From Polyangiaceae bacterium (GTDB lineage Bacteria > Myxococcota_A > Polyangia > Polyangiales > Polyangiaceae), in NCBI GenBank assembly GCA_013214025.1, contig JABSRN010000131.1:1-40644 (forward strand): DNA of 40,644 nt. The letters run 5' to 3'. The notes beneath the pieces were generated by a model. It worked only from the letters and a program-made list of their open reading frames with translations. It did no database searches and had not been told where the DNA came from. A program made the translations under genes and the position numbers. Numbering within the stretch: the stretch's first letter is position 1; each line of letters starts with the position of its first letter. Below are positions 9,707-39,913 of the stretch, piece after piece.

Positions 9707-9708
9707 AC

Positions 9709-21422: not shown

Positions 21423-21733
21423 ATGCCCAACGAAAACGATGAGCTGCTTCGGCTGTTTGATGGGCCCACCGTCCACCCATCGCCGCTGCCAAACCTCGCC
21501 GTTCAGCTACCGGGACTCATCAGCGACCCACATGTGCGCTTCCCCCATATCGTAGCATTGCTTGAACAGGATAAAATGCTAGCCGGGGCAGTGCTGCGCT
21601 CGTGCAGTCGCCCCTCTACGCGGGTCGTAACGAGCTCGGTTCCCTGCACGACGCGGTGGAGGCCTTCCTTTGCGGCTTGCTACATCACGTCGGCTTTGCC
21701 GGATTGGTCTACTCGGCCGCCGTCTATCCGTGA
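21423..21733 (+). pseudogene. Truncated, frameshifted HDOD-domain gene
   Basis: From the ATG at 21423 the frame reads like the start of an HDOD domain: LPNLAVQLPGLISDPHV, then ALLEQDKMLAGAVLR. Near 21600 the match moves to another frame: VQSPLYAGRNELGSLHDAVE, directly joined to AFLCGLLHHVGFAGLVYSAA, which in HDOD proteins lies tens of residues later, then TGA at 21731-21733. So there is one frameshift and one internal deletion. HDOD proteins are signalling-linked; this copy should be inactive. Its end overlaps the end of the convergent kinase gene by ten bases. Confidence 0.65.
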
Positions 21734-23733
21734 CCCTCAACGACGCCCCCGTCGGCCGTCACCGCCAATATTCGACCCATTTCCGCCGAAACGCTGACGA
21801 ACGGAGCCTCCCATCCCGGATCTTTCCAGACCGATGTCCACTCGGTGTCTTCTCCTGCAGACTGGAACCAGATTTGTCCGGCCCCCGCAGCCCATGCACG
21901 ACCGCTTCCGTCGACGGCAACAGCGCTAATATTCTTGCCGTCTTCGACGAGGCTGCCCGTGGAGCCGGTCGGATCAAAGCGCATCGCCACTCCGTCTGTC
22001 CCGACAATCACCACCAGCCCGAGCCCCGGCTGGCCCGCGCAGGCGAGGTACGTACGCCCCTTGGTCGAGGGGACGAGCAGCGCATCCCACGCCAACGGAG
22101 AATAAGTCGCCATGAATGCGAAGTTGTCTCGGGTCCGGCCGATCACCAACCAGCGTTCCTCGTCTAGTCGACTGATTCCTGTCACCACGCGGGCTTCTTT
22201 GAGCATCACGGGGCTCAGCCACCGGCCGCCCACAATAGCGTGAAGCTGCGGCGGGCTATCTGGCGCGGACGCCACCAATACGGCCAAGTCGTCCGGATCT
22301 CCGGAGCCCCGCTCGAAGGTCAGGTAGCGGTCTTGCCGGTGTTCAATCCAGCGCACTCCGCGACGGGAATAGAACGCCAAACCGGCTTGCGATCCACCAA
22401 GGAACCACTGCCCGGGAGCGTATCGGTTGACGAAATTGATGCTGTCCAGCTTGTCGAGATCCGGAGCGTCCACTCGAAGCCATTCGAGGCCATTGAATAT
22501 CTCCAGGCCGTTGGTAGTGGCCGCGAGACACATGCCATCGCTTTCCCATGAAACATCGCGCAGTACCCGAGGGCCGCCGGGGTTGTTGAGCACATTCCAT
22601 TCCCACTTGTTCAGAATGTCATCTGGCTCAGGGCCACCCAATCGCTCCCGACGGATCGGAGCACCAGTACCGCCCTTTACCGTATTGAGCTCGCTGAGCA
22701 CTAAGCCCAAGAAACTCGCCCCCGAATCGGGACGCGAACGGGGATCGGCCCGAGTCGCCAGCGCGATAGCGTTGTCGATAGCCTGGCAGACCCAAGGGCG
22801 CGCTCGCAGATCTTGGTGCAAGCCGATGGCGTCCCGAATCCCGCGGCGCTCCTTGGAGTTCACCATGGCGAGCGCCTCGCCCACGGACTGGGTCTTGAAC
22901 AGATCTTCGCCCGTCAGGATGCGGTAGGTCAAACACCCCACGCTAAAAATGTCGGTGGCCCGCCCGATCTGTTTGCCGTCGGACAGTAGCTGCTCTGGCG
23001 GAGCGTAACCGGGCTCCCCCAGGCGCGTGCCGTGGAAGGTCGCCTTGGCACCTTTCGGCCGGGCCAGCGCGAAATCTGCGATCTTGAACAATTCGCCCTC
23101 GGCGAAACCGCTACACCGAATTGAGCTAGGACGGAGATCGCGGTGAAGTACACCGGCCTCGTGAATCGCATCCACGCCGTGACAAATACACGCCAGCGCA
23201 TTGGCGGCACGAGCTGCGTCGAAGGCGTAACCTGATTGTTTGATGCAGTAGGCCACCCGCGATCCTAGAGAGGTCCCCTCGACCCCGCCATGCACGTACT
23301 CAAGGGCCAACCACGGGATGGTCATCTCTTCCACGCCGAACATTACTTGGAGCGAACCGGTCTCGACCAAGCGAACAACAAACGGAGTTGGCGGCACCCG
23401 TTGTGCCAGGCGAGCCAAGGCCAGACCCTCTTTTTGGACGAGCAAATTCGCTTTCTCACGACCCGCCTTGATGATCGTCGGCCGGATCACCTTGATCGAG
23501 ACGGTTGACGTCGAATCGTTAACTCGGCGATGCGCCAGGTAGGTCACAGTGGTTGCGTCCGCATCCGTCGACTGCGTCAACTCGTAGGTCGCGCCTTGTA
23601 GAAGGCTCGACGACTGAATCGTGATGCCCCGGAGATCGGAAAGGGTGTGATCGTCTTGACTGATAGTTAGCAAGTGTTGGTCCGCGTTGAGCCCCGCCCC
23701 GGGTTTTGAGCCGTGAGCATACCTCAAACTCAT
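21724..23733 (-). CDS. Ser/Thr protein kinase-like protein with C-terminal propeller-like domain
   Basis: A 669-residue protein. The kinase domain covers about residues 45-345: ATP-binding Lys in VSIKVIRP (Lys81), HRDLRPSSI (HRD 197-199), IADFALA (220-222 DFA) and YAPPEQL. The catalytic Asp and DFx Asp are present, but the metal-coordinating Asn of HRDxxPxN is Ser and the Gly of DFG is Ala. Activity is therefore doubtful but not excluded. The C-terminal 300 residues have repeated short beta-type motifs (WRVDAP-like, GTDGVAMRF, SAVAVDGSGRAWAAG) suggesting a beta-propeller sensor or docking domain. No membrane segment is seen. I chose the ATG at 23733; a frame open to 23784 gives 17 more residues. 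Confidence 0.85.
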   Translation of the reverse strand: MSLRYAHGSKPGAGLNADQHLLTISQDDHTLSDLRGITIQSSSLLQGATYELTQSTDADATTVTYLAHRRVNDSTSTVSIKVIRPTIIKAGREKANLLVQKEGLALARLAQRVPPTPFVVRLVETGSLQVMFGVEEMTIPWLALEYVHGGVEGTSLGSRVAYCIKQSGYAFDAARAANALACICHGVDAIHEAGVLHRDLRPSSIRCSGFAEGELFKIADFALARPKGAKATFHGTRLGEPGYAPPEQLLSDGKQIGRATDIFSVGCLTYRILTGEDLFKTQSVGEALAMVNSKERRGIRDAIGLHQDLRARPWVCQAIDNAIALATRADPRSRPDSGASFLGLVLSELNTVKGGTGAPIRRERLGGPEPDDILNKWEWNVLNNPGGPRVLRDVSWESDGMCLAATTNGLEIFNGLEWLRVDAPDLDKLDSINFVNRYAPGQWFLGGSQAGLAFYSRRGVRWIEHRQDRYLTFERGSGDPDDLAVLVASAPDSPPQLHAIVGGRWLSPVMLKEARVVTGISRLDEERWLVIGRTRDNFAFMATYSPLAWDALLVPSTKGRTYLACAGQPGLGLVVIVGTDGVAMRFDPTGSTGSLVEDGKNISAVAVDGSGRAWAAGAGQIWFQSAGEDTEWTSVWKDPGWEAPFVSVSAEMGRILAVTADGGVVEGHG

Positions 23734-23873
23734 AGCAGCGGTGGGGATTCCGAGCTGCCGGGACGGTGCCCACATCGGCGCCATCCGACTCTTAACAAAC
23801 GACCGGGCCCGAGCGCCGGCCGTGACCCTGGCACTGTCTGGAGCGCCGCCGTATTTACTCTCCGGCCGTGGAA

Positions 23874-24920
23874 CTACAGCGCGAAGCCCAGCTCAATGCC
23901 GAGGTTCACGGAAGAGACGGTGTGGCTTCGAATCAGCCAAAGCATGCCCGCCAGGTCAACCACTACGTCGACGGAGTCCGAAAGCGCGAAATCGAGACCC
24001 AGACCACCGCGCATGACAGGGCCGTTCTGCGGTAGGTAACCGGAACTCACGCGGAACGGAATTTCGAATCGGCGGGCATCGTCCAAACCAATGCGCTTCT
24101 CGAATTGAAGCTGTGGCAGCAAATTCCCACCCCGACCGGAGCGGTCTTTCAGATTCACGTAAGCCACGGATGCCCCAGCGCTAATGCTGAACGAGAAACG
24201 GCGATCCAAACGGGCCTCCAGGAGATGATTGTAGAACGATCCTGCCCCCACACCGATAGCGCTTTCGCTCCGTGCGGCGAGGCGCCAAAGGGAGTATTCG
24301 CGGTCCGAAGCATCATTCGAACTTGATGCGCTCGCGCGAGTGGAATGATCCGGCAGCGCGGCACCCAGGGCAGCCTCAAATTGTTCACCGAACTCGTCGG
24401 CGGCGCTGTTGACGGTCGGCGACAGCGCCGGGCGCTGGTCGGCGTGAATCATTAGCAGCTGAACGCGGTACGCCCCAGGAGCCCCCGCCAAGCTGGCATA
24501 CAGACCGATGCTGGCGCCCCAACGACCCACCAATTCGTGTATCTCCGCCGGGCTCATGGCGGCACCGAATTGCCCGCCGGGAGCTCCCACCTGACTCACC
24601 TGATAGCCAAAGGCGCGGCCCAGCTCCGCCAGCGCCTCCGTCGCGCGCGCAGCCCCAGGCCCGGCGCCTGGCATGAACGCAGCCGAAACCACCAGCAGGT
24701 GGGGGTGGGGGGCGATGGGTGCGCCCAAGCGCTGAGGGATCGGAGCTCCCGGTGCACGCAAGGCCCCCACTGATGGTGCGGGAACGGACGGTGCCGCAAC
24801 AGCCGGTGGAGCGGGTAGCGGCCTAGCTGGCGCGGGCATAGGCGGCGGTCCCGCCTGGGCATTGACGCTCGGCGCCAGCAGCCAAAAGGCGAACGCCAGG
24901 GAGCAGAGGGAGCGATTCAT
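23874..24920 (-). CDS. Outer-membrane beta-barrel-like protein with Pro/Ala-rich N-terminus
   Basis: A 348-residue exported protein. The ATG at 24920 opens a clear Sec signal (SLAFAFWLLAPSVNAQA), followed by about 45 residues rich in Pro and Ala, then a globular part (about 70-195; HLLVVSAAF, EIHELVGRWGASIGLYASLAG) that may bind or sense a ligand. The last 130 residues alternate polar and hydrophobic residues and end in a strand finishing in Leu (LGIELGFAL), typical of a small barrel. Its ATG overlaps the stop of the multihaem lipoprotein gene (ATGA), so the two are co-translated. It is the last gene of the surface operon and could be the barrel partner of the cytochrome. Not recognised as a named family. 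Confidence 0.75.
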   Translation of the reverse strand: MNRSLCSLAFAFWLLAPSVNAQAGPPPMPAPARPLPAPPAVAAPSVPAPSVGALRAPGAPIPQRLGAPIAPHPHLLVVSAAFMPGAGPGAARATEALAELGRAFGYQVSQVGAPGGQFGAAMSPAEIHELVGRWGASIGLYASLAGAPGAYRVQLLMIHADQRPALSPTVNSAADEFGEQFEAALGAALPDHSTRASASSSNDASDREYSLWRLAARSESAIGVGAGSFYNHLLEARLDRRFSFSISAGASVAYVNLKDRSGRGGNLLPQLQFEKRIGLDDARRFEIPFRVSSGYLPQNGPVMRGGLGLDFALSDSVDVVVDLAGMLWLIRSHTVSSVNLGIELGFAL

Positions 24921-26770
24921 GGGGTGACTCCACCGGTCGGGGGTGTGGGAAGGTGCTTCGAGAGGGCGAACTCTGACGAGGACACAACCCACTCAGCAAA
25001 CTGCGGATTATGCACGGCGGCGGCGGCGTCAGCCATCAGTAGCTGCAGGTTGCGAGCGACGCGGCTGATGACAGCACCGCGCTCGCCGGGAGCGAGCTTC
25101 TTCGGGACGGGCGGTCGGTGGGGCGATTGCCCTGGCTCCGATTCCGGAACCCATCCACCCGATGCCAAACGACTCCAAAGAACGCCCGCCGTTTCCATCA
25201 ACTTAGGGTTGACTGAGCGCCCCTCGTGGCAACCGGAACAGCTGCGAGCACTCGCCTTGAAACTGTGACCTTCTCCCCGAACTCGGCCGCGGCCCTCGTG
25301 ACAGCTCCGGCAGCCATTTTCCACCCGGCGATGGACCCCGATTTTTTCCACGCTGTCCCCGCTGATTGGATCCACCGCCCCGAGCCCATACCACACAGCC
25401 GCGCTGGTCGCGCGCATCTGCTTCGTGTCGCCATGGCAGGAAACACAGAGCTTGTCCGCCTTCGGCAAGACAACCCCGTCCCAAGCTTCAGCCAGCCGCA
25501 CATCACGGAGCAAGGGTTCGCTATGGAAGCCGTCCGCTGCGGGGGGGCCGGTGCCGTGAGGGGCGTGACAGGTGACGCAACTTAACCCCTGGGACTCCTC
25601 CGGATGGGGGCGATCGGCAGAGCGAAGCCCTTGGGATACCAAAAAGCCGTGTGTGGAGTGACAGCTGGCACACTCCGGGTTTGCGCGGGTCCGTGGATCC
25701 CGATCCGCCTGTGCCATCGTCGAACTACGCCACGCTTCGACGTGACCGTATCGCGGTGGCCCATCGTGACAAACCGCACACACATCCGTTCGCAGAATGT
25801 CGGCCCGTTCGGAACGCTCACCGATCGCCCCAGGGCCATGACATGCCAAACATCCGACTCCCCCGACTCGACGAAGCTCCCGGGGCAGGTTGTACCAAGT
25901 GTCCGGGTGGGGGCGCAATGTGGGCACGCCCAGGCTTCGCATCATGTGCTCGAATCCGCCGTCGTCAATGCCTGGCTCGCCCGTGGTGTGACATGCCATC
26001 GTGCAGCTGGGATCGTAGTCGCGCCCCAATAGACGCCCCAAGCCACGATGAAACACTGACGTCATCTGACTGTGGGAAACGGATTCTGCGATCTCCCGGT
26101 GGCACCCCGATCGCCCACAATCCAGCGGGGTCGTCTGATAGTCGTGCGAACGCAGTCTCAGCATGCGTCCCGCCTGGCCCTCTAGTGTCCAACTGCCGGA
26201 CCGGTCAGGGCTCAAACTCTGCAGATCGCCATGGGAATGCAGCTCTGCCTGGGAGCCTTCCGGGCGCTGAAGGATCTTCCAGCCGCCCGCTAGGTAGCTC
26301 CGTTGGTTCATCGGTAGGCTCGTGAGTCCGCGCGAGCGAGCAGCCGCCATCACATCGATGCGTTCCTGAACCGGGCCGTTCCCGGGGGCGCCCCTCCAGG
26401 TTGCCTGCAGCGTCACCTTGCCTTGAGTGGTCGGCGAAATGGCCACCACCCCATTTTTCGACACCTGGTGGAGTCCGGCGGCCACTCGACTGGGCATTCT
26501 CGCGATCAGCACAGTGCCTTCCTCGGACACTTTGAGTTCCCTAAGCTTCGGGCCTTTGACCTGCCGCCAACTCAACGTGCCCACGGAAGGCGTTCGTTGG
26601 GCCCGAACTTCGATCAACGAATCGTAGCCGTGCTGCGCCCGATCGCCGACGACGGTCAGCTCCAGTTTGGGCTTCACAACTTTCGGCGGCGTCTTATCAC
26701 GCCGCTCACCACAGCCCGTCAAGACCACGAGACACAGAACCGCACACAGACTCCTCGGGAACCCTGTCAA
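24917..26770 (-). CDS. Multihaem c-type cytochrome lipoprotein (up to nine haem motifs)
   Basis: A 617-residue protein. The start is taken as TTG at 26770, since it overlaps the upstream stop as TTGA, follows a G-rich stretch and places a lipobox (VVLTGC, Cys20) correctly. Residues about 35-150 look like an Ig/PKD-type beta domain. Seven canonical CXXCH motifs are present (307, 331, 367, 398, 442, 487, 511) plus CX4CH (218-224, CGRSGCH) and CX3CH (256-261, CTMACH), so up to nine c-type haems; many further His residues could be distal ligands. The lipid anchor puts it in the outer membrane or periplasm face. The role is electron transfer or a multihaem reductase; the acceptor is unknown. It resembles cytochrome c554-like proteins in layout only. 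Confidence 0.88.
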   Translation of the reverse strand: MTGFPRSLCAVLCLVVLTGCGERRDKTPPKVVKPKLELTVVGDRAQHGYDSLIEVRAQRTPSVGTLSWRQVKGPKLRELKVSEEGTVLIARMPSRVAAGLHQVSKNGVVAISPTTQGKVTLQATWRGAPGNGPVQERIDVMAAARSRGLTSLPMNQRSYLAGGWKILQRPEGSQAELHSHGDLQSLSPDRSGSWTLEGQAGRMLRLRSHDYQTTPLDCGRSGCHREIAESVSHSQMTSVFHRGLGRLLGRDYDPSCTMACHTTGEPGIDDGGFEHMMRSLGVPTLRPHPDTWYNLPRELRRVGGVGCLACHGPGAIGERSERADILRTDVCAVCHDGPPRYGHVEAWRSSTMAQADRDPRTRANPECASCHSTHGFLVSQGLRSADRPHPEESQGLSCVTCHAPHGTGPPAADGFHSEPLLRDVRLAEAWDGVVLPKADKLCVSCHGDTKQMRATSAAVWYGLGAVDPISGDSVEKIGVHRRVENGCRSCHEGRGRVRGEGHSFKASARSCSGCHEGRSVNPKLMETAGVLWSRLASGGWVPESEPGQSPHRPPVPKKLAPGERGAVISRVARNLQLLMADAAAAVHNPQFAEWVVSSSEFALSKHLPTPPTGGVTP

Positions 26771-27606
26771 GGCGCCCCCCCCCGGCAAGTTCCGAACTCG
26801 CAGCGTCCACTCGGGCAATCCCGCGGCAGGTAGCAGTTGGGAGTGGGGCGCGGAGGCAGACAGTAGGAGGACACGCAGCGAGTCCCCGCGATGCAATCAG
26901 CGGGCGACTGGCAAGCTTCGCTCACGTACTTTTCTTGACCTCGGCGACAGACTTTCCGGATACCCTGCTCCGCTGAGAAGTGGCAAACCCAGCCGCCCCC
27001 ATCGTTGTCGGGAAACTCTGGCGACAAATCTAGGCAGATCTCAACTCCTAGGGTCCCGCTGTCGCCAACACCGCTCCGTTTGCCGCATAACCATCCGGGA
27101 GTCTTGCCCGTGGGCATCACCCCGGCGGGGCGTTCACCACCGACGCAGACGCTGATTCCACCGAGGACCGCGCAATCCCACTCCCCCTCGTCCGGCAGAT
27201 ATGGCGAACGCTGCACGCAAACGTCCCCTTTACACTCAAATGCTGCCCCAGGTCGTTGACGGGAAGCACACACCCGCTCCTTGCCTAGACCTACGCAGCG
27301 AAAACCCGCTTCGGCGCCGCCGGCATCCGAGGGGATCGTCCGTGGGACAACGCAAACACCGCCAACACAGGACTTGTCTTCTCCCCAGCAGATCCGCAGC
27401 TTGCCTACATCCGCACACCACTCCCCGACGTCGGCAACCGGCGCCGGCAGGCGTAGCTTGGATTCCCTGATGGGAACTACATCGATCACCGAATCGCGCG
27501 CGGGCGGTGATCGGGACACCAACGACGGCCGCGGGCTCGTGGTGGTGTCGCAAGCGAGCCCCCACAACAGGAAAATCCCGCCCCACGCAAGCTGCCGCAC
27601 AAACAT
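26767..27606 (-). CDS. Cys-rich surface lipoprotein
   Basis: A 279-residue protein with no family I recognise. The ATG at 27606 lies eight bases after the upstream stop. The N-terminus MFVRQLAWGGIFLLWGLAC gives a signal ending at Cys19, a likely lipidation site although Gly at -3 is unusual. Then come about six Cys modules of the type EWCADVGKLRICWG, FRCVGLGKERVCAS, EWDCAVLGGISVCVGG, WVCHFSAEQG, CQSPADC and CYLPRDCPSGRC. Most Cys seem to be paired within a module, suggesting small disulfide-bonded knots outside the cytoplasm. Its TGA overlaps the TTG start of the multihaem gene. Possible roles are cytochrome partner, adhesin or metal binding; none is shown by sequence. Confidence 0.78.
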   Translation of the reverse strand: MFVRQLAWGGIFLLWGLACDTTTSPRPSLVSRSPPARDSVIDVVPIRESKLRLPAPVADVGEWCADVGKLRICWGEDKSCVGGVCVVPRTIPSDAGGAEAGFRCVGLGKERVCASRQRPGAAFECKGDVCVQRSPYLPDEGEWDCAVLGGISVCVGGERPAGVMPTGKTPGWLCGKRSGVGDSGTLGVEICLDLSPEFPDNDGGGWVCHFSAEQGIRKVCRRGQEKYVSEACQSPADCIAGTRCVSSYCLPPRPTPNCYLPRDCPSGRCEFGTCRGGAP

Positions 27607-27614
27607 CGGTCCGA

Positions 27615-28502
27615 CTAGCCTGCGCGCCGTCTGCGTCGAAAGCCCAGCGCGATGAGCCAGCCAAATCCACATGACAGCGGCTCGAGGGATGAGCCAACGG
27701 GCAGCGCCATCGGCGATAGCGAACAACCGTAGAAAAAAGGCGGGCCGACTGTGGTCACGCACACTTCTTGGCTCAGACTCGTCGATGTTTGTCCGCGTAA
27801 ATCCAACACTTGAGCCGCGAAACATACCTCACCGATGGCATCGTTCAGCGCCAGATTCACGATGGCAGGGTCTCCGGATGCAGGCAAGGGCAGGTGGCCG
27901 AGAGAAGAGGGACTCCTGATGCGCGGCCCTCTCGACTGAAAAATTTGCAGCGTCAAATTTTCCCGACCGCCATCGTCATCAGCCGGGGACAGAGAGATGA
28001 GAAATTCGTAGCGGTCTTGATCTGACTCCGTACAGGGGTCCCGTTGCCGCCGGAGATCCCACACGACATCGCTTACTCCCACAAATTCGGGAGGGTCTTG
28101 ATCCAAGGCGCCGCTCACGTCAAAATTCAACGTGCGCCCTTCGCCTCGGGTAGCCGTGCCAAAGCCCCGCAGTTCAGGCCAGCTGAGTGTGTAGGCCTTG
28201 CCCTCTTCTAAAAAATCGGGCTCGAAACTGAGAATGCCCTCGTTGGGGCTGAACTCGGCGGCGACCGCCACCGCCTCGCTGTCGCCTTCCGGCTGGATTG
28301 TAACATCCTCGTCGATCAGCTCCGCAGACGACGCGTAGTAGGCGCGCAAGCTCGCGTTCAGCGGCACCACGGCACCATCGACGGGGGCACTGTGCAACAA
28401 GTCGGGCTTGCCGCACTCTCCCGCCCTTACTGATGCGGGGGTCGTGACGGCCAAACACACGCCGAATAGAGCCCCGCGTCGGCACGAAGTCAGAGCGAGC
28501 AT
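27615..28502 (-). CDS. Exported protein with MYXO-CTERM-like C-terminus
   Basis: A 295-residue protein. The ATG at 28502 opens a Sec signal (LFGVCLAVTTPASVRAG). The body has Ig-like strands: DLLHSAPVDGAVVPLNASL resembles bacterial Ig-like domains that begin with P-x-DGA, and SFEPDFLEEGKAYTLSW fits the same fold. A second half (VGVSDVVWDLRRQ...) may be another such domain. It ends with Ser-Cys-Gly, a hydrophobic helix (GFGWLIALGF) and RRRRR, the layout of a MYXO-CTERM sorting tag that targets proteins to the cell surface via a Cys. It overlaps the MopE-like gene by 13 bases and precedes the Cys-rich lipoprotein gene, so it belongs to the surface operon. Confidence 0.82.
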   Translation of the reverse strand: MLALTSCRRGALFGVCLAVTTPASVRAGECGKPDLLHSAPVDGAVVPLNASLRAYYASSAELIDEDVTIQPEGDSEAVAVAAEFSPNEGILSFEPDFLEEGKAYTLSWPELRGFGTATRGEGRTLNFDVSGALDQDPPEFVGVSDVVWDLRRQRDPCTESDQDRYEFLISLSPADDDGGRENLTLQIFQSRGPRIRSPSSLGHLPLPASGDPAIVNLALNDAIGEVCFAAQVLDLRGQTSTSLSQEVCVTTVGPPFFYGCSLSPMALPVGSSLEPLSCGFGWLIALGFRRRRRAG

Positions 28503-29215
28503 TGCACCTCGTCGCAATCGCCCAACACTTCCGCACGGTCCCCATCGCCGTCGAGATCGAAAGTGTCTCGGCAGCAATAACCCGCATCGATGCAACATTG
28601 CTCCAATTCCGGTGAGTCGTGGTGCTCAAGGGAGATTGACTCGCATACCTGCGGTACGTGGGTCTCTCGGCAAGCGCCAAATGCACGTCCATCCGCCGCA
28701 CAGGTCTGGACCGCCCAGTAACTACAGAAGGAAACAAAACAGATACGTTCACTCCCCGGCAAGCAGGCTTGGCAACGCTGTGGGCATTCACTCCAGCGCC
28801 CAGCCACGCAGTACTGAGCACCTCCTTCAGCGCACGGAATCGACGGCAAGTCGTCGACAGCGCCATTACAATCATCGTCGACACCGTTGCAGGTTTCGTC
28901 GACAGGCTGACAGCTCGGTGAGCTCAACTCATCGGGCGGCTCCACGTCCAACACCGGCGGCTCTTCTTCCTCGACGATTTCTTCGGGGATGTCCTCAGGC
29001 GTTAGCTCGGGCAGCGGTGCCTGCAACTCCACGTCCTGCCCTGCGTCGCCACTAATAGGAGACGACTGACCGAGCTCAGCGAGGCCGCTGCGCCCGCAAC
29101 CGGCGGCGAGACCCACGCAGAGTCCCAGGGACATAAGACGCCGCAGAACGCGAATCGCCGGGCCGGCACCGCTCGGGGAGCGCAACTCGGGCGCTGTGCA
29201 CGGTTTGTGCTTCAC
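28490..29215 (-). CDS. Lipoprotein with MopE-like motif
   Basis: About 241 residues; first gene of the surface operon. A hydrophobic stretch ending VGLAAGC is a lipobox, with Arg-Arg before it. The start is uncertain: GTG at 29215 is used here; an ATG at 29134 leaves a signal that is too short. After an acidic stretch rich in Glu and Pro, DETCNGVDDDCNGAVDD matches the metal-binding motif seen in MopE-like myxobacterial proteins. A Cys-rich part follows (PCAEGGAQYC, CPQRCQACLPG, CCIDAGYCC) and an EF-loop-like DLDGDGDRAE near the end. Calcium or another metal probably stabilises it. It is divergent from the outer-membrane protein gene at 29348. Confidence 0.78.
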   Translation of the reverse strand: MKHKPCTAPELRSPSGAGPAIRVLRRLMSLGLCVGLAAGCGRSGLAELGQSSPISGDAGQDVELQAPLPELTPEDIPEEIVEEEEPPVLDVEPPDELSSPSCQPVDETCNGVDDDCNGAVDDLPSIPCAEGGAQYCVAGRWSECPQRCQACLPGSERICFVSFCSYWAVQTCAADGRAFGACRETHVPQVCESISLEHHDSPELEQCCIDAGYCCRDTFDLDGDGDRAEVLGDCDEVQCSL

Positions 29216-29347
29216 GGAGGCTAACCTAGCAGTTCGCAATAAATTCGGCCATGCACCCCGGTCGCTCTTTGGTCCCATATGCTTCACAAATATTACTCTT
29301 TAGTCGCCGGCGGGATTCGCAGTACCTTCGCCCTAGTTCAGCCCGCT

Positions 29348-30394
29348 ATGCACAAGCTCGGCCAAGCCCACTTATTCGCTCCCACCGCGCTTTTCAGCGC
29401 ACTCCTCTGGGCTCCGGCAACGCTGGGTCAGCCCGCCGCTACGGCGTCGGTGTCGCCTCCAGTTCACGCCCCACCGTCAACTACGGTTCACACCCCGCCC
29501 ACGCCGACGGTCGCCGTTGCCGCCAGCCCGCCGCCTCTGTCGCCCGCTCCCTGGCCGCCAAACCCCGCGGCAAGGGCCGGGTCTACTGGCGCTGCCGCTC
29601 CACTCCCTGCCGGCGCAGCGCCTCCCGCCCCGCCCCCGCCGGGTTCGTCGATTGTCGTCCCAGACGCCGGACCAACAGCCAATCCGAGCTACCCGGCCCC
29701 CGATCCATCCGCCCCGAAAGAGGCTGTCCCACGAGATGCCCGCAGTCGTCATCGCAACAGCTCTAGTTTCAGGGACGCCCACGCCGATCGAGTCGTGCTC
29801 TTCCCCACGGCCACCACGCACCCCGCTGGGACGTGGACCATTTCATCGACGGAAATAGTTCTCGAGCAAATCACCTACTCGCCCACCGACACCACGCAAA
29901 TCACTGGCACGTTCACCCCGTTCCTTACCGCCGAGGTGATTCCCTTCGACATGACGCTGAAAAGCGTGTTCAGCAAGGGAGAGACAGTGCGTCTCGCGGC
30001 CCTTGCTTCCATCGGCGGCTTGATGGGTCATGGCCTCGGTTTCACCGGCATTGGACGCTTCGGCGCGGTGGCTCAGTTTTGCTGGGACGAGGGCTGCCGT
30101 TCAAGCGTCAACCTATCCACCTCCGCCGTCATGCTCGGCGCCCCCATCTTCGCCAATAGCGCCGGAGCCGTGTGGGATCTGGGCGGGCTGACCAAACTGC
30201 TCCTCGAAACCGAAATGATATTTCCGACGGGTCAAGACATGGGGGACTACAACGGCTTGGCTATCACTCCAGGTGTGCGCTGGAGCCGCCGGGCTTGGGC
30301 GATCGATCTCTCCTTGCTCATCCCCGTGACGGTCGACGAGGCGGACTTACCCGCCCTACCGATTCTGACGGGGACCTATCGCTTCTTGGATTGA
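29348..30394 (+). CDS. Outer-membrane beta-barrel-like protein with long Pro-rich linker
   Basis: A 348-residue exported protein. The ATG at 29348 starts a signal (LFAPTALFSALLWAPATLGQ). About 120 residues of Pro, Ala, Thr and Ser follow, then about 200 residues of alternating strands: RVVLFPTATTHPAGTW, TGTFTPFLTAEVIPFDMTLK, SVNLSTSAVMLGAPIF, ending in a strand with terminal aromatic residue (ILTGTYRFLD). This pattern fits a small barrel of the kind found in many myxobacterial outer membranes. Function unknown. The gene is divergent from the surface operon and may be controlled with it. Its end overlaps the convergent receiver-like gene by 19 bases. Confidence 0.75.
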   Translation: MHKLGQAHLFAPTALFSALLWAPATLGQPAATASVSPPVHAPPSTTVHTPPTPTVAVAASPPPLSPAPWPPNPAARAGSTGAAAPLPAGAAPPAPPPPGSSIVVPDAGPTANPSYPAPDPSAPKEAVPRDARSRHRNSSSFRDAHADRVVLFPTATTHPAGTWTISSTEIVLEQITYSPTDTTQITGTFTPFLTAEVIPFDMTLKSVFSKGETVRLAALASIGGLMGHGLGFTGIGRFGAVAQFCWDEGCRSSVNLSTSAVMLGAPIFANSAGAVWDLGGLTKLLLETEMIFPTGQDMGDYNGLAITPGVRWSRRAWAIDLSLLIPVTVDEADLPALPILTGTYRFLD

Positions 30395-33078: not shown

Positions 33079-35109
33079 TTATTGCAGAGCGAAGTCGTAT
33101 CGAAGCTTGGCGAACACACGATCGTGGGTGGTGAACCCGTTGAGACCGCTGAGGCGGTTGCCGGGCTGAAAAGTGACGTAGCCCCCACCCACCGACCACG
33201 CGTCAGCGAGCTCGTAGCTGACGTCAGCCCGTGCCAACCAGCCCGAATCCAAGCCCGCGAGGACGCTGCCCACGGCCGTGACCTCCAGCCTCTCACGTAG
33301 GAAAAATTGATGATACTGGACTGCTACCGCCGGCTGTCTGAGCTCAAATAAAGTTGGCTCGGAGGTGCCTTCGGGGATGAAATTTTGGGTTAACTCCGCT
33401 GAAAGCATCACATCGCTGAACCCTGAGTAGGTGTAGCCGAGCATGCTTTTCACGATGGTGCGGCGTTCCCAGCGGTAGTCAGGGATAGCCACGTCCTCCA
33501 TCTCAAGCACAACCGGGCGGTCAACGTCCGCTCCGAGTTCCCATTTTAATAGCGAGCTCTCATGGGCGAAGGTGCCGGAGTGACCGAAAGCGAGGAAGCG
33601 CGGATGGTACAATTTCAGCGCGACCTCTTCTTGTAGCCACTCGGTGAGCTCTGGGAGTTTTGCTACGCCCTGCTGATCCAATAGGGACGCGGAGTAGAGC
33701 GCAAGATCGTAACCGGATCCCGTGTACCTCCAGCGAGCGAAATACTGCTGAGCGCCTAAATCCCACTGCGGGGGCTCGTGTTCGTAGCGAATCTCGGCTT
33801 GCGCGATGACATCCCCACCGAGGCCATCTCCGCCGGATAGTTGCTCGCGCATCGGGTTGAAGTTGCCTCGGGGTGGAGGCAGCAAGCCGAAGTTCGCCTC
33901 GTGCACAACGAGTCCTTCGAACCGATGTTCGCCGACGAACACGTTCACCCGAGACATAGCGACCGGCAGGCGTAGGTCGTCCAGATCGGATATGCCCGGC
34001 TCCCGAAGATCTCGCGGGTTCACCATGTCCAAGGGCGACAGCATATTGCCCTCCCCCCAGACGACGATTTGTCGGCCAGCGCTCAGCTCGACGTCTTGCA
34101 AAGACCAATTGACAAAGGCCTCACGAACCAGTGCCAGCTGCTCGTAGGTTTCGATCGTGACGGCATCGTAGCTATCCCGATCGACCCAGTAGGCGAAGTC
34201 TCTCGCGAAGTGACCAGCGAGGACGAATCGCCAGTCGCCATCCTTGTAGCCCAACTGCGCATCGATGCTCTGCCTCAGCTGCGCTACCGGATTGCTATCA
34301 AAACGCTCCGTCCATAGCGCCGCATCCGATCGAAAGAAGCCGGTGAGCACGAGATGGGTAGTCGGCGGCTCCGTCTCCCCCCCGTCCTCAACTGCGGCGA
34401 ACCCATCGCTATCAGCCTCCCCCCCCCAGCCCGCTTCGTCGGCATCGTCGCCAAATCCTTCTTCGTCAGCGCCGGCTTCCGTGGTGGGACCTGGAACAGG
34501 TATTGGCTCGGGCGGAGTCTCCGCATCCGGTGACTGCGGTGCTGGCGGCGCGGCAGTGTTCGGTGGCGTGTCAGCTGTCGGCGGAGCGGCGGGTGGAGCC
34601 TCTGGTGCCGGAGCTCCGTCAGGTTCGGGCACCACGGGCGGCGTTGGCTCGACAGCTGCGCTCGGCGCGTCCGCGGGTGGTGTCGGCTCCGGCCCAGGCG
34701 CGGGTGATGGCTCCGGCAAGGGTGCTGGCTCCGGCGAGGGCGCGGGCTCCGGCGAGGGCGCGGGTGCTGGCTGAACCTCAGGCGGGGAGCCGGGAACCGT
34801 GGGAGGTGCGGGCGGTGTTGGCTCGGCAGGTACCGGGGGCTCGGGGACGGTAGGGCCGGTTTGCGCAGGAGACCCGTTCGCCGGGCAGTCAGCTCCAGGT
34901 GAGTTGGGGGGGGCCAGCAGTCGCCGAAGCATGCCGAGTGAGGAAAAGCGCCGTAGCTCTTGCCCGGAGTTCCTACGATTTAGACTCTCAGCCTCGCACT
35001 GGGCACGTTGGTGCAGGACACCGCCCACGGCGCCGTAAGCGGACATCGGCGTCAACGCAGCGAGCACGATCCAGCCAGGGACAATTGCTCGGCGTGTTTG
35101 GTGGGTCAT
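33079..35109 (-). CDS. DUF1302-like outer-membrane protein with Pro-rich linker
   Basis: A 676-residue exported protein. The ATG at 35109 opens a signal (AIVPGWIVLAALTPMSAYGA). Residues about 86-212 are a Pro/Glu/Ala repeat region; residues 213-248 are strongly acidic with GFGDD and AGWGGEADSDGF. The rest, about 252-676, is a barrel of the DUF1302 kind: LVLTGFFRSD, WVDRDSYDAVT, ELSAGRQIVVWGEGN, LSPLDMVNPRDL and a last strand FAKLRYDFALQ ending in an aliphatic-polar pattern. Proteins like this are often encoded with an RND/MMPL transporter and a LolA-like protein, as here, so it is likely the outer-membrane part of an export route. It is divergent from those genes with two palindromes between. 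Confidence 0.85.
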   Translation of the reverse strand: MTHQTRRAIVPGWIVLAALTPMSAYGAVGGVLHQRAQCEAESLNRRNSGQELRRFSSLGMLRRLLAPPNSPGADCPANGSPAQTGPTVPEPPVPAEPTPPAPPTVPGSPPEVQPAPAPSPEPAPSPEPAPLPEPSPAPGPEPTPPADAPSAAVEPTPPVVPEPDGAPAPEAPPAAPPTADTPPNTAAPPAPQSPDAETPPEPIPVPGPTTEAGADEEGFGDDADEAGWGGEADSDGFAAVEDGGETEPPTTHLVLTGFFRSDAALWTERFDSNPVAQLRQSIDAQLGYKDGDWRFVLAGHFARDFAYWVDRDSYDAVTIETYEQLALVREAFVNWSLQDVELSAGRQIVVWGEGNMLSPLDMVNPRDLREPGISDLDDLRLPVAMSRVNVFVGEHRFEGLVVHEANFGLLPPPRGNFNPMREQLSGGDGLGGDVIAQAEIRYEHEPPQWDLGAQQYFARWRYTGSGYDLALYSASLLDQQGVAKLPELTEWLQEEVALKLYHPRFLAFGHSGTFAHESSLLKWELGADVDRPVVLEMEDVAIPDYRWERRTIVKSMLGYTYSGFSDVMLSAELTQNFIPEGTSEPTLFELRQPAVAVQYHQFFLRERLEVTAVGSVLAGLDSGWLARADVSYELADAWSVGGGYVTFQPGNRLSGLNGFTTHDRVFAKLRYDFALQ
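34709..34762 (+). repeat. Three tandem copies of an 18-bp unit within the DUF1302-like gene
   Basis: GGCTCCGGCGAGGGCGCG occurs at 34727-34744 and 34745-34762, with a degenerate copy at 34709-34726. They encode the PAPSPE repeat of the Pro-rich linker, so length can change in frame. Confidence 0.75.
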
Positions 35110-35179
35110 GGCTTCACGATTTCCGTCCCCCAGCCGGCAGTCGCCAACTTCGGTCCAGGGGACTCCTGATTGACGGGAA

Positions 35180-35195
35180 CCTATCGCACGATAGG
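35180..35195. promoter_or_regulatory. Palindromic operator copy 1 of the divergon
   Basis: CCTATCGCACGATAGG: 7-bp half-sites CCTATCG and CGATAGG with a two-base centre, 71 bases upstream of the ATG of the DUF1302-like gene. The reverse complement of this site is identical to copy 2 at 35388-35403. Likely bound by the TetR regulator encoded downstream of the RND gene. Confidence 0.7.
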
Positions 35196-35387
35196 GCATT
35201 GCATCAAGGCATTTCTTGAGTCAAATCGTTACGAATATCAAACATTTACCGACTGCCCGCTCGCTGCGCACCGCGCCAAAAAGCTGTAAACAAGCGCCGT
35301 ACTGAAACGAGTGTATCTCCCAACAACGTGGTTCCCGGAATTAGTCCTCGAACTGCCGCGCCGCCAAATTCCGGACTTGCGCAGCTA

Positions 35388-35403: not shown

Positions 35404-35501
35404 TTTTTTCCCGTTCTATCGAATTGAACGTCCCCGCTCTCCGTCTGATTCACCGCGACCCCCATCGGGTACGAATTCCCTTCAACGAACAAAAGGCTCC
35501 T

Positions 35502-36329
35502 ATGAAACCCCGTTCCGCCCAACTGGCTATCGCCTCCCTTGTCGTCGCCTGTGGACTCCACGCAGTGGACGCCAAAGCATTGAATCCAAACACCAAAGAC
35601 GCCAACGCTATCGCCAAGGCCGTCGACGCCCAAGATGGCGGCGATAAGACAACGAGCTTGATGACGATGACCCTCAAGGACGCGTCCGGCCGTAAACGAG
35701 TCCGCAAGCTCCAGCAACGCAGTCTGAAATTTCATGGTGGCACCAAGACCATCATCTTCTTTGAGAGCCCCGCGGACGTCAGGAACACAGCACTGCTCTC
35801 CGTCGACTATGACGATGGCAATAAGACGGACGACCAGTGGCTCTATTTACCCAGCCTCCACAAGTCCACACGAATATCCAGCTCGGAAAAGTCGGGCTCC
35901 TTCCTCGGAACCGACCTCACCTACGCTGACATGACGAAACCAGACATCAGCGACTACAACTACAAGATCGTCAAACAGTCGGCCAAGGTCGGCGGAGAAG
36001 ACTGTTGGGTGCTGGAATCCAGGGCCAAGACGAAGAAACTCGCCGAAGAGACCGGTTACCTCAAGAGCCACCAGTGGATCAGCAAGAGCAAGCTGATTCC
36101 TCTTCAGGTGAAGTCATGGATCACCGAGGGCAAGAAGCTCAAGTACATGAAATTCGGTGACGTCAAAAAAGTGGACGGTGTCTGGACCCCCTTCAAGCTG
36201 AGCGTCCGCACCATGCGGGCCGGCAAGGTCGAGTCCATGACGACACTGGTGTTCAATAGGATCCGCCACAACCAAGACTCCGTCACCGACAGCGACTTTA
36301 CCGAGCGCCGTCTCGAAAAAGGGCTGTAG
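35502..36329 (+). CDS. LolA-like periplasmic protein (outer-membrane lipoprotein-sorting family)
   Basis: A 275-residue exported protein. The ATG at 35502 follows AAAAGG; the signal is LAIASLVVACGLHAVDAKA. The body has the strands of LolA-like lipid carriers of the PF17131 type: GGDKTTSLMTMTLKDASGR, KTIIFFESPADVRNTALLSV, DDQWLYLPSLHKSTRISSS, SFLGTDLTYADMT, YNYKIVKQ, IPLQVKSWI and GVWTPFKLSV. Such proteins move hydrophobic molecules through the periplasm. It is the first gene of the transport operon, 67 bases before the RND gene, with a palindromic operator upstream. The cargo is unknown. Confidence 0.9.
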   Translation: MKPRSAQLAIASLVVACGLHAVDAKALNPNTKDANAIAKAVDAQDGGDKTTSLMTMTLKDASGRKRVRKLQQRSLKFHGGTKTIIFFESPADVRNTALLSVDYDDGNKTDDQWLYLPSLHKSTRISSSEKSGSFLGTDLTYADMTKPDISDYNYKIVKQSAKVGGEDCWVLESRAKTKKLAEETGYLKSHQWISKSKLIPLQVKSWITEGKKLKYMKFGDVKKVDGVWTPFKLSVRTMRAGKVESMTTLVFNRIRHNQDSVTDSDFTERRLEKGL

Positions 36330-36396
36330 GCACCCAACCCGCCAGGGAGGGGCGACACGGGACGATCGTTCACAACAGCCCCTGCGTGAATTGAGC

Positions 36397-39009
36397 ATGA
36401 GCGAAACCTCTCCTCCCCCCTCCGCCGCCCGCGGCTCCTTCTACTACCGACTCGGAGAATGGGTCGTTCGCTTCCGGCGGTCCATCCTCCTCACGTCCGT
36501 GATCTTCACGTTGGTGATGGGCCACCAAATGGCCACCAAGCTGGTCATCAACAACAGCACCGATATCTACATTCAGTCCCACGACGGTCTGCTTGAGCGA
36601 TTGCACGAGCTTCGCGAGACCTTCGGCGACGAGCGGGTGTTGCTTCTGGTGGCCGAAGGGGACGTCTTCAGCCAAGACTATCTGCGACAACTCAAGAAGC
36701 TCGAGACTTCCATTCGGGGTTTTGCCTTCGAGACGACCGACAAACAATCCCGAAGCGTCTTCGGAAGGGCCCCCGACAGCGCCACAACGACGGAGCAACA
36801 CGCGACGTCTGATTCACCCGATCTCGTCGCGCCCGGGAAAGACGATTTCGCGGAGTTCGAAGACTTCGAGGAGAACGGCAGCGCCGACGCCTGGGGTCAA
36901 GAGAGCGGCGGCAGTATCTTCGAAGACATCATCTCGATTCTCAATGTTCGGCAGACGCGATTTGTCGACGGCGCCCTCAAGGTAGAAGGCTTACTAGAAT
37001 CGTGGCCGACCGACGCTGAACTCCCGGCTCTCAAAGAGAAAGTACTCAACGATCCGACACTGGTCGGACAAGTCATCAGTGCCGCGGGGCAACACTCGGT
37101 CATGGTCATACGCACCACCGAGCTCAACGAAGTGGACGCGCGCCGGCTGACAGTAGCGATGCTTGAGCTCATGGCAGAGCACGAGAGGCCCGGCTTTCGA
37201 CTGCACCTAGCGGGATTCTCCACGATGCTAGCAACGCTTGCCCAGGTACTTAAGAAGCAGCAACTCACCATTGCGGGCCTGTCCGGTGGTGGGCTTATCT
37301 TGCTATTATTTTTGTTTTTCCGTCACCCTTACGGAGTGCTCGGCCCGATGATGGTGGTCGGCATGTCCGTCTGCTGGACGCTCGGGACCATGGCCGTACT
37401 CGGCGTGCCGATGACGAGCGAAAATCAGATCATCGCCTGTTTTCTGCAGGTCGTCGGAATTGGCGATACCGTGCACGTACAATCCGTCTACCGAACGCTG
37501 CGGCGCGATGGGTTGGAAAACAACGAAGCTATCTGCCAGGCCCTCAAGAGCACCGGAGCCCCGGTGGTCTTCACCACGCTGACCACAGCGGCAGGGCTAT
37601 CCAGCTTTATTTCCGCCAGCACCCCCCCCATCCGCGACTCCGGAACCTTCGGTGCCTTCGGGGTGCTACTCGCTCTCGCCCTTTCCTTAACGGTTGCACC
37701 AGCGGTACTCGCCTACAACACCAAGAGTCTGCTTGGCGTGAAACCTATCGCCGAGCAAGCGCGAGACCGTTTGGACGACCTGCTCGATTGGTGCAATCGT
37801 CTCTCGAGCGGTGCCGACGGGCGCAGTTCCCGAGCTCGTGCGCCTTGGGTTGTCGCGCTCGGCGCCTTGCTCGGCGTGAGCTGCGTGTACTCAGCCAGCA
37901 AGATCCAGGTAGGACAAGACGTTATCAGCTGGTTTCCCGAAGAGCTTCCGATCCGCAAAGCATTTGTCGCCATCGACGAACATGTCGGTGGCGCCGCCAA
38001 CCTAGAACTATTGGTTCGCGCCGAGCCAGGCAAAACGATCAAAAGCCGCGAATTGTTGCTGGGCTTAGAAAAACTCGAAGCCCACGCACTTGCCTACCGA
38101 GATCCGCTCACAGGAATGAAAGTCGTAGAGAACGTGACGAGTGTGGTGGACGTAATCCGGGAGAGTTCCCGCGCGATAAACGGAAATCAGCAATCCCACT
38201 ATCGCGTCCCAGACACCCAACGCGGCGTGACTGATTTGATGACCTTGTTCGAGAACTCCGGCCCCTCGGAACTCAAACGACTCATGACCGTGGACGCTAG
38301 CAAATCCCTGATGACCTTGCGCGTGCGCTGGTTGGACGCCACGGCCTACGGTCCCCTCGTCGAGCACATGAACGCGGGCATCACCGAACATATGGACGGA
38401 CTCGCGGAAGTTCATATGACGGGCTCGGTAACAAGCAATCTCACAATCGCTCGGGCTCTGCTGGGTGACTTGGTGACCAGCGCGAGCATTGCCCTCTGCG
38501 TGATTACCTTGTTCATGGTCGTGCTGTTTCGCGACCTCAAGTTGGGCCTCGTATCCATGCTACCCAACCTGTTGCCCGCCATCTCGGTTCTCGGATTCAT
38601 GGGAGCGATCGGGCTACGGCTCGATGTATCAAACCTACTGGTATCGAGTATCGTGCTGGGGATCGCCGTAGACGACACCATTCATTTCCTTCACCAATTC
38701 AAGGCCCACTACGCCAAACATGGCCACGTCGATAATGCCATCGCCCACGCCTTCGATCACGCCGGGAGGGCGCTCCTCTCCACCAGCGCAATCTTGCTTA
38801 CGGGATTCGTCGTTTTCTATATCGGCACACTCCAAAACATTCGAGTATTCGGCGGTCTCATCTGTCTGTCGATCATCGTAGCCCTCGTAGCCGATCTCAT
38901 CTTCGCCCCAGCTATCCTTCGCGTCGTCTTCCGAAATCGGGTAGCCGACGAGTCACCTGTCGACTCTCCCGCCAAGCCACAGTTAGAATCCACTCATGTG
39001 CCCGCCTAA
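36397..39009 (+). CDS. RND-superfamily (MMPL/HAE3-type) transporter
   Basis: An 870-residue inner-membrane protein. Two halves each have a first helix, a large periplasmic loop and a bundle of helices. Helix 1 is about 29-46 (SILLTSVIFTLVMGHQMA). Each half carries the Asp expected in helix 4: VVGIGDTVH and IAVDDTIHFLHQF. There is no membrane fusion gene, and the layout fits the HAE3 type that moves lipids or hydrophobic compounds. The first periplasmic loop contains an acidic insert (about 149-168: DDFAEFEDF...DAWGQ). The ATG at 36397 is preferred over the TTG at 36391. It follows the LolA-like gene and overlaps the TetR gene by 14 bases. With the DUF1302-like protein these probably form a trans-envelope export route. 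Confidence 0.9.
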   Translation: MSETSPPPSAARGSFYYRLGEWVVRFRRSILLTSVIFTLVMGHQMATKLVINNSTDIYIQSHDGLLERLHELRETFGDERVLLLVAEGDVFSQDYLRQLKKLETSIRGFAFETTDKQSRSVFGRAPDSATTTEQHATSDSPDLVAPGKDDFAEFEDFEENGSADAWGQESGGSIFEDIISILNVRQTRFVDGALKVEGLLESWPTDAELPALKEKVLNDPTLVGQVISAAGQHSVMVIRTTELNEVDARRLTVAMLELMAEHERPGFRLHLAGFSTMLATLAQVLKKQQLTIAGLSGGGLILLLFLFFRHPYGVLGPMMVVGMSVCWTLGTMAVLGVPMTSENQIIACFLQVVGIGDTVHVQSVYRTLRRDGLENNEAICQALKSTGAPVVFTTLTTAAGLSSFISASTPPIRDSGTFGAFGVLLALALSLTVAPAVLAYNTKSLLGVKPIAEQARDRLDDLLDWCNRLSSGADGRSSRARAPWVVALGALLGVSCVYSASKIQVGQDVISWFPEELPIRKAFVAIDEHVGGAANLELLVRAEPGKTIKSRELLLGLEKLEAHALAYRDPLTGMKVVENVTSVVDVIRESSRAINGNQQSHYRVPDTQRGVTDLMTLFENSGPSELKRLMTVDASKSLMTLRVRWLDATAYGPLVEHMNAGITEHMDGLAEVHMTGSVTSNLTIARALLGDLVTSASIALCVITLFMVVLFRDLKLGLVSMLPNLLPAISVLGFMGAIGLRLDVSNLLVSSIVLGIAVDDTIHFLHQFKAHYAKHGHVDNAIAHAFDHAGRALLSTSAILLTGFVVFYIGTLQNIRVFGGLICLSIIVALVADLIFAPAILRVVFRNRVADESPVDSPAKPQLESTHVPA

Positions 39010-39913
39010 ATCAACTTCGGCGCCCAGTAAACGAAAGCCCCGCGGGAAGTCTGCGCCGAAGTCCGCCGTTCGCGAACGCTCCGCATCTACGACGAAGAAA
39101 TCGTCGACCAAAAAGTCGCCGAAGTCGACAACCCGCAAGAAGGCTCGTGCCACGCCGCCTCCCCCACCACGTGGCACCGCTCAGACCCCATCGGCGCGCT
39201 CAAGCAGTCTGCCGCCTCCGCGGGCCGATCAGGCGGCTTCCGCCCGAACCCGGGCAACTCTGCTCGGCATGCTCGATGCCAATCAAGGAGTTCGCTATTC
39301 TGAGAAGCATCGCAAGGTACTGCATGAGGCTTTATTCCTCATAGCCGAGCGCGGCTGCAGTGGTGCCTCTCTGAGAGAACTCGCTCAGAGACTCGGGATT
39401 CGTCAACCGAGCCTCTATCACTATTTCGACAGCAAGGAGGATCTCTTCCTGCAGATCCTCCAAAATTACATCTCCGAATCAACGGACGTCGACGCCAGCA
39501 CGCTGCCGCCCCTCTCTAGCTTGACCGATATGCTCCGCTACTCTCTGGACGCCGTGGCAGCGCGGTTTAAAACGCCCGAGCAGGCGTCCTATGTCCGTTT
39601 TCTAATTTCCCTCGGACAAGAATACCCCGATTTACAGACAACCGTGCAGAAGGTCATCTTTGAACGGGTCACGCGTGTACTCACGGACGCCACTCGACTA
39701 TTCGCCGAGGAGACCGGCTTCCTGCCTAGCGATTCTCATCACTTGTCCCGAATGGTCATCGGCGCGATGATTTCACGCCTGCACGACCACCACGTCATCG
39801 GGGGTCACCGAGAATCTCCAGACGACCTAAATGATTTTCGGGACTTCTTAATCGAAGCCGCAGTGCACACGGGGCAAGCTCGAAAGAAAACTTTCGACAA
39901 GAAGCTTAGCTGA
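38996..39913 (+). CDS. TetR-family regulator with Lys/Arg-rich N-terminal tail
   Basis: A 305-residue protein. Residues about 105-150 are a TetR DNA-binding domain: HEALFLIAERGCSGASL, then LRELAQRLGIRQPSLYHYFDSKEDL, with the usual YHYF. Residues 150-305 form the helical ligand and dimer domain. The first 90 residues are unusual: rich in Lys, Ser, Thr and Arg (KRKPRGKSAPKSA, TTKKSSTKKSPKSTTRKKAR) and Pro, resembling histone H1 tails. A shorter start at ATG 39269 (Met92) is possible, but the longer frame is open throughout and overlaps the RND gene by 14 bases. It likely controls the divergon through the palindromes at 35180 and 35388; a lipid ligand is plausible. Confidence 0.85.
   Translation: MCPPKSTSAPSKRKPRGKSAPKSAVRERSASTTKKSSTKKSPKSTTRKKARATPPPPPRGTAQTPSARSSSLPPPRADQAASARTRATLLGMLDANQGVRYSEKHRKVLHEALFLIAERGCSGASLRELAQRLGIRQPSLYHYFDSKEDLFLQILQNYISESTDVDASTLPPLSSLTDMLRYSLDAVAARFKTPEQASYVRFLISLGQEYPDLQTTVQKVIFERVTRVLTDATRLFAEETGFLPSDSHHLSRMVIGAMISRLHDHHVIGGHRESPDDLNDFRDFLIEAAVHTGQARKKTFDKKLS

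Follow-up and report, generated by a model that had tools for sequence, protein, structure and literature searches.

The characterised OcwA-type terminal cytochrome belongs to a Gram-positive bacterium, i.e., to a cell without an outer membrane to cross. In passages of the paper describing it (PMC6703420), OcwA is a nonahaem protein whose haems 1–4 are c554-like and haems 5–9 NrfA-like, with six bis-His haems, one His-Met haem, and two open ones; it reduces both nitrite (kcat 1 per min) and hydroxylamine. An excerpt of PMC7829351 places OcwA in a nonahaem subclade otherwise composed of proteins from Gram-negatives; given that tree, Gram-negative relatives of OcwA are already known as sequences, and the family as such is not new. 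Surface electron transfer is proposed for OmhA in literature passages. Here, we analyse a five-gene operon with a divergent neighbour at positions 23874–30394 of contig JABSRN010000131.1 of a Polyangiaceae bacterium (phylum Myxococcota_A, assembly GCA_013214025.1); the whole stretch of 40,644 nucleotides is referred to as the window. The genes are labelled A (MopE-like lipoprotein), B (MYXO-CTERM-like), C (Cys-module lipoprotein), D (nine-haem lipoprotein), E (barrel), and F (the divergent gene). The best reading of the locus is an OcwA-type cytochrome in a new Cys-rich, MYXO-CTERM-linked setting.

Gene D (24917..26770, minus strand) encodes a nine-haem c-type cytochrome lipoprotein, in which an N-terminal beta region with an Ig-like domain precedes a haem domain of about 400 residues related to OcwA and NrfA. 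The profile of 20 D proteins matched best the structures 6i5b (E 2.3e-21) and 6qvm (E 1.7e-17), followed by NrfA-type nitrite reductases; octahaem nitrite reductases were also found among the matches. The former structure, named only "uncharacterized protein" in the match table, is taken to be OcwA, its code occurring once in PMC6703420, and the latter, an S-layer undecahaem cytochrome of Carboxydothermus ferrireducens, is probably OmhA. The electron-transfer role offered as an inference in the original prediction now has homology support from the OcwA profile match. The AlphaFold model of D (mean pLDDT, the predicted local distance difference test, 74.4) has 6qvm as its first fold match (Z 11.0, 324 residues, root mean square deviation 6.2), which is weak taken alone. 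Residues 32–144 of the model match immunoglobulin (Ig) domains at Z of 8–10, and most listed fold rows for D are of this kind; we take them to suggest an Ig-like fold and nothing further. OcwA is not among the listed fold rows, and this is no evidence against the relationship. The order of motifs in the haem domain, together with the alignment, fits a tetrahaem block of the c554 type ahead of a pentahaem block of the NrfA type, the model itself holding no haems.

Nine haem motifs had been announced for D, and nine were counted: one CX4CH, one CX3CH, and seven CX2CH. The same number is present in 20 of 22 D proteins, the remaining pair (loci L042 and L043 of family f12) having eight, with the ninth lost and one of the two proteins cut by a contig end. 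The first site is CX4CH in all 20 aligned D proteins; the second is CX3CH in the 14 proteins of the window's clade and CX2CH in six distant ones. A similar division is observed at position 236 of the window's protein, where Met is found in 14/14 proteins of the clade and His in 6/6 distant ones, making this residue a probable distal haem ligand as judged from the alignment. The CX3CH site and the His-to-Met change mark the window's clade at the sequence level; CX3CH and CX4CH haem motifs as such already occur in the portions of the published literature covered. Another methionine, Met352, is kept in 93% of the window's clade and in 83% of the distant proteins. Within the clade, only six non-motif His and two Met residues are kept at a level of at least 85%; hence, at least one haem lacks a conserved distal ligand. 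The D protein of genome G032 has 16 His in all for its nine motifs, which leaves at least two of its haems without bis-His ligation. No CXXCK motif was found in any of the 20 D proteins.

Gene C (26767..27606, minus strand), which encodes a lipoprotein with repeated Cys modules, adjoins D or is fused with it. Its relationship to D was assessed in an even sample of 192 class genomes out of a larger group; incomplete drafts are numerous among them, and the genome searches score a limited number of candidates per genome (six for D), so that absences are soft. The D profile matched 25 of the 192 genomes at E ≤ 0.001 and 19 at E ≤ 1e-30, including the window's own genome, in which D matched once; the six genomes with weaker matches (G005, G010, G018, G085, G102, and G188) were kept outside the D-positive set. 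Twenty loci from the 18 other strongly D-positive genomes, together with the window, comprise 21 D loci. C adjoins D upstream in 16 of them and is fused with D in two (18/21 together), the fusions being single open frames at L042 and L043 (genus g64, family f12). In all 16 separate pairs, the spacing ranges from a 37 bp overlap to a 35 bp gap (starts were assigned by script; the start in L034 is weak). Over 16 aligned C proteins 19 columns are invariant, 13 of them Cys, and Pfam matches are limited to weak Cys-module models (DUF7107 in 11/16 at E ≤ 1).

The genomic distribution of the genes follows the same pattern. The C profile matched 18 of the 192 genomes, strong B matches (E ≤ 1e-30) were found in 11, and strong F matches (E ≤ 1e-30) in 10, all within the 19 D-positive genomes. 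Hypergeometric values for co-occurrence with D are 2e-24, 3e-13, and 6e-12 for C, B, and F, respectively, when genomes are treated as independent and kinship is uncorrected, and 4e-15, 5e-8, and 8e-7 at the level of genera. Eight further genomes, all outside the D set, gave weaker B matches (2e-10 to 4e-4), and 14 genomes gave weaker F matches, 13 of them likewise outside it; both were left out of the respective sets. E-like proteins are wider still (30/192 genomes). The underlying alignments comprise 20 D proteins (alignment A1, without L042), C proteins without L040 (no start by script), L042 (fused, with L043 standing in), and L048 (a C-A fusion) (alignment A2), and B proteins without the 36%-identical B of G181 (alignment A4).

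The layout of the operon described in the original prediction proved exact to the base in a frame check: five packed minus-strand genes at 23874–29214, with three overlaps and one 8 bp gap. A (end 28490) overlaps B (ATG at 28502) by 13 bp, B (end 27615) is followed by C (ATG at 27606) after 8 bp, and 4 bp overlaps link C (end 26767) with D (TTG at 26770; TTGA) and D (end 24917) with E (ATG at 24920; ATGA). Lipoboxes were located in A, C, and D, and a Sec-type signal with a GC-hydrophobic-RRRRR tail is seen by eye in B, in agreement with the surface tags proposed for four products. Among the eight gene products of the region scanned against Pfam, D alone has a clear match (Cytochrome_C7 at 1e-10 and related models), and no significant family was found for B, C, E, or F.

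Gene A (28490..29214, minus strand; the start is uncertain, GTG at 29214 or ATG at 29134) encodes a Cys-rich lipoprotein with the lipobox LAAGC, one MopE-type D/C motif, and a conserved C-terminal Cys domain. It scores 18.4 bits against PF11617, the MopE metal-binding motif, below the curated cut-off of 27. The C-terminal domain is shared with a multi-repeat variant, A2 (13 aligned A-type proteins). Gene B (27615..28502, minus strand) encodes an exported protein with an Ig-like region, as read from sequence, and a MYXO-CTERM-like tail (PPFFxGC ... RRRR). PPFFxGC followed by a hydrophobic stretch and Arg residues is present in 10/10 aligned B proteins, i.e., the three parts named for MYXO-CTERM in the myxosortase abstract (PMC11980579): an invariant-Cys motif, a hydrophobic stretch, and an Arg tail. 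The corresponding model TIGR03901 matches six of the ten B proteins at E ≤ 1 (best 0.0021), and the window's B is unmatched at this level. A overlaps B by 4–28 bp in all ten loci with an aligned B (some starts were picked by script or by eye). Since this overlap recurs, C-D spacing is tight in 16/16 pairs, and the whole order is found again in family f12, the tight packing is not due to chance.

The A-type C-terminal domain occurs in 16 of the 21 D loci: upstream on D's strand in 12, fused with C in one (L048), and on the opposite strand in three (L039, L051, L052). At L048, the second copy in G181, a single upstream protein about 1.2 kb from D joins C modules with the A C-terminal domain; this lipoprotein (9139-10452, minus strand) is a second natural fusion in the set. 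In the same genome, locus L089 shows an A-type domain immediately before a more distantly related B, both on one strand, by which the A-B pair reaches family f8.

Conserved synteny across Myxococcota, on which the original prediction had staked itself, was found in two forms. In family f12 (G012, G039, G114, G118), tblastn placed F, B, and D in the window's order, with E in three genomes and A and C in the same places; three of these loci are contiguous through E, and that of G118 breaks inside D at a contig end, its E lying at the end of another contig. In five relatives from the window's own family, f1 (G082, G101, G115, G170, G175), the group F<-|A-B-E stays together, away from C-D. In G115, about 32 kb of a single contig separate the two cassettes; in the other four genomes, they are on different contigs of the drafts. 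In four of the five (not G170), A2 lies just upstream of C-D, and the A proteins of all five split cassettes carry the same C-terminal Cys pattern. F is divergent from A in both layouts. Given the split layout, the operon of the window resembles two cassettes combined, C-D lying between B and E. Gene content also varies within genus g10, where G170 has D, C, B, and F and none were found in G121. A recent transfer of the merged operon between the window's lineage and f12 was considered, and the trees do not decide: the best trees group the window with f12 at weak support (46/87 for D, 48/14 for B, 78/87 for E), and an alternative D clade of the window with f1 is not rejected (p-AU 0.69).

The other element named beforehand, a barrel in the last gene of the operon, is also predicted. 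Gene E (23874..24920, minus strand) encodes an exported protein with a TolB-N/PelC-like domain (residues 74–188) and a predicted eight-stranded outer-membrane barrel (212–347). In its AlphaFold model, built from 18 sequences (mean pLDDT 78.6), the eight strands form a barrel of about 140 residues, all 14 ten-residue blocks from 211 on having pLDDT of 84–97, and an alpha/beta domain precedes it. Fold matches of the barrel are a Legionella porin associated with a type IV secretion system (Z 17.2, first row), NspA (17.1), OprF (16.9), and an OmpA model (16.6); the first domain matches TolB and PelC at Z of about 11. The E proteins of G012 and G039 comprise hardly anything beyond the barrel. A barrel of eight strands has no room for a multihaem protein. 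As predicted, E is therefore too small to hold a cytochrome, and we rejected it as a porin-cytochrome conduit given its predicted strands and OmpA-size fold matches. MtrB, for comparison, is predicted with 28 strands in passages of a review (PMC7096707). Gene F (29348..30394, plus strand) encodes a signal peptide, a Pro-rich linker, and a region of about 210 residues; its divergent orientation is as stated in the original prediction, and its barrel nature is suggested by the look of that region. The longest open reading frame of F begins at 29279, and the ATG at 29348 gives the better signal peptide by eye.

Hence, the analogy with porin-cytochrome conduits drawn in the original prediction is not supported, whereas its remark that the partners are foreign to them is: neither a Cys-module lipoprotein nor a MYXO-CTERM protein was found in described conduits. 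A separate periplasmic multihaem cytochrome is absent from the operon, D being the only one of the eight scanned products with cytochrome matches. PF11854 (MtrB/PioB), the one barrel family sought, had no match in the window's own genome, a 97% complete draft; this negative is weak evidence, since the 14 control genomes gave one sub-threshold match and none past the cut-off, i.e., no clear positive.

Beyond the class, the D profile matched 21 of 282 phylum genomes at E ≤ 1e-20. G288 (family f54) has the order A2, C, D, with the D frame opening directly after the C stop, and in G309 (f60) an A-type gene immediately precedes D, with no C seen. Three loci of family f33 (L113, L114, L115) have a barrel candidate, then a haem lipoprotein with 13 motifs, then a D-like nonahaem gene. 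The barrel candidate is of about 480–490 residues (322 of them present in L113) and without a Pfam match, and in two of the three loci another multihaem protein precedes it. This layout resembles a conduit cluster and may be one carrying an OcwA-like protein; nothing alike was seen at the window's operon. The D-like protein of L116 (G138), with only six haem motifs and a CarboxypepD_reg-like start by eye, appears as a reduced relative.

On balance, judging from sequence, we lean towards the reading that the operon builds a lipid-anchored surface redox complex, with D as an OcwA-type core, C as its partner, and A, B, E, and F serving in binding, display, or anchoring. D would be an OcwA-type nonahaem protein, its c554-like tetrahaem and NrfA-like pentahaem blocks lying behind the Ig-like region, lipid-anchored in the outer membrane, and it would exchange electrons, in one direction or the other, with an extracellular acceptor, as proposed for its Gram-positive structural relatives. 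C would be a standing Cys-rich partner or scaffold of D, and the same complex would include A as a further Cys-rich lipoprotein that perhaps binds metal. B would be sorted by a myxosortase, and E would present a periplasmic TolB/PelC-like domain on its OmpA-size barrel; together with F, A and these two proteins may make up another cassette, separable from the first, which where present serves to display or anchor the complex. The position of the D-like gene of f33 after the 13-motif haem lipoprotein and the barrel candidate in three loci counts in favour of this reading.

Several observations weigh against it. The D fold match (Z 11.0, root mean square deviation 6.2) is below the tool's safe level for helical proteins, and A, B, C, and F are without function by homology. 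The operon holds no conduit candidate to feed a surface-exposed D, and it offers no explanation of how electrons would arrive at D from the inner membrane. C has no adjacent copy at three of the 21 D loci, namely two G001 loci without C, and L048. Among the 18 genomes with both D and C, seven are without strong B and eight without strong F; hence, the A-B-E-F cassette is either dispensable or outside the same system. Finally, since OcwA reduces nitrite and hydroxylamine, D may be a small-molecule enzyme.

This last point leads to an alternative that we consider unlikely, in which D is an oxidoreductase of the c554/NrfA/octahaem line, engaged in detoxification of nitrite, hydroxylamine, or similar compounds, with solids not its job. 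It would be consistent with the NrfA and octahaem nitrite reductases among the profile matches, the nitrite turnover of OcwA given above, and the haem lacking a conserved distal ligand in the window's clade; set against these are the lack of CXXCK in all 20 D proteins and the identity of the two best profile matches, which are surface cytochromes and not those enzymes. Nor are Nrf systems known to include lipoprotein anchors or Cys-rich partners. Surface acquisition of copper or iron, with A binding the metal and D reducing it for uptake, seems quite improbable. The MopE-like D/C motifs of A-type proteins point in this direction, as does the copper response of Methylococcus capsulatus, which in the literature passages covered involves copper-responsive surface c-type cytochromes and the copper-binding MopE. 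However, the window's A is below the PF11617 cut-off, its motifs look as much like calcium-binding repeats, and no recurring receptor or transporter gene was seen near the loci on inspection by eye, without a family scan.

The split cassettes raise the question of whether the genes form one system at all. Their separation in the five f1 genomes and the seven D- and C-containing genomes without strong B would suit a loose surface set with shared regulation only, in which D and C act without the others and the part played by A, B, E, and F, in adhesion or in the envelope, is unrelated. We see little likelihood in this, as all genomes with strong B or strong F are D-positive, B and E flank C-D both in the window and in the three contiguous loci of f12, and A-type proteins accompany both cassettes. 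The same separation bears on a porin-cytochrome conduit with E or F as the insulation around D in the outer membrane, as E and D lie apart in the f1 relatives. A multihaem lipoprotein and barrel E in one operon, with barrel candidate F beside it, invite such a model, and a larger barrel candidate does accompany the D-like genes of f33; the model is nevertheless highly improbable given the eight strands predicted for E, with NspA, OprF, and OmpA at Z of about 17, against 28 predicted for MtrB, the barrel-like region of F of about 210 residues, and the lack of a PF11854 match in the genome.

Several neighbouring genes were seen in the window. A serine/threonine kinase-like gene (21724-23784, minus strand) lies downstream of the operon; it was considered as a part of it and rejected, as tblastn gave kinase-like matches only in L036, L086, and L088, at a distance from the cassette genes. 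A larger outer-membrane barrel candidate is encoded at 33079-35199 (minus strand); this protein has 706 residues, a Pro-rich region, and a DUF1302 match at 5e-15, and its gene lies near LolA-like (35424-36329), MMPL (36391-39009), and TetR (38996-39913) genes. A tblastn search with this protein gave no match at the fetched cytochrome loci.

Among the listed literature matches on Myxococcota multihaem proteins, MopE, MYXO-CTERM, OcwA, and extracellular electron transfer, no title or abstract opening describes the gene set of the operon, subscription journals being mostly outside the search, and none of the listed matches links MYXO-CTERM proteins to cytochromes. Secreted multihaem proteins in Myxococcota genomes are the subject of PMC11495043, the operon being unmentioned in the passages retrieved from it. 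A lipoprotein gene set that is conserved in several families of Myxococcota, and that combines recurring Cys-rich partners with an operon lacking a conduit, poses a testable question, namely, how D is charged, and MYXO-CTERM display gains a possible respiratory use. A bolder proposal, which we hold only tentatively and consider doubtful, is a form of Gram-negative surface electron transfer in which an OcwA-type nonahaem lipoprotein works with Cys-rich partners (A, C) instead of a barrel conduit and is coupled to a MYXO-CTERM display cassette. It would constitute a novel route to the surface or an exchange between touching cells, with the c554-like block retuned in the window's clade (CX3CH at haem 2, Met for His).

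Comparison with known systems places the locus as follows. OcwA of Thermincola potens (6i5b) resembles D in its nine haems, a matching C-terminal stretch with the conserved D...HN, and the order of c554-like and NrfA-like blocks that we infer for D; D differs in being a lipoprotein from a Gram-negative, in its Ig-like region at the N-terminus, in the motifs of haem 1 (CX4CH) and haem 2 (CX3CH), and in having Cys-rich partner genes. The undecahaem cytochrome of Carboxydothermus ferrireducens, the first fold match of the D model, has eleven haems and is an S-layer protein of a Gram-positive; it is likened to D without regard to gene neighbourhood. The MtrCAB-type conduits also bring together a multihaem lipoprotein and an outer-membrane barrel, whereas the operon has an E far smaller than MtrB in predicted strands (eight versus 28) and no second cytochrome among the scanned products, in a genome unmatched by PF11854. 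Methylococcus capsulatus, in the excerpts considered, likewise combines a MopE-type motif protein with surface multihaem cytochromes; it belongs to an unrelated phylum, A falls short of the Pfam cut-off, and the likeness is one of proteins and not of gene order. Finally, MYXO-CTERM proteins of the TraA type, as outlined in the myxosortase abstract, share with B the invariant Cys, the hydrophobic stretch, and the Arg tail, the difference being that the window's B escapes TIGR03901 at E ≤ 1.

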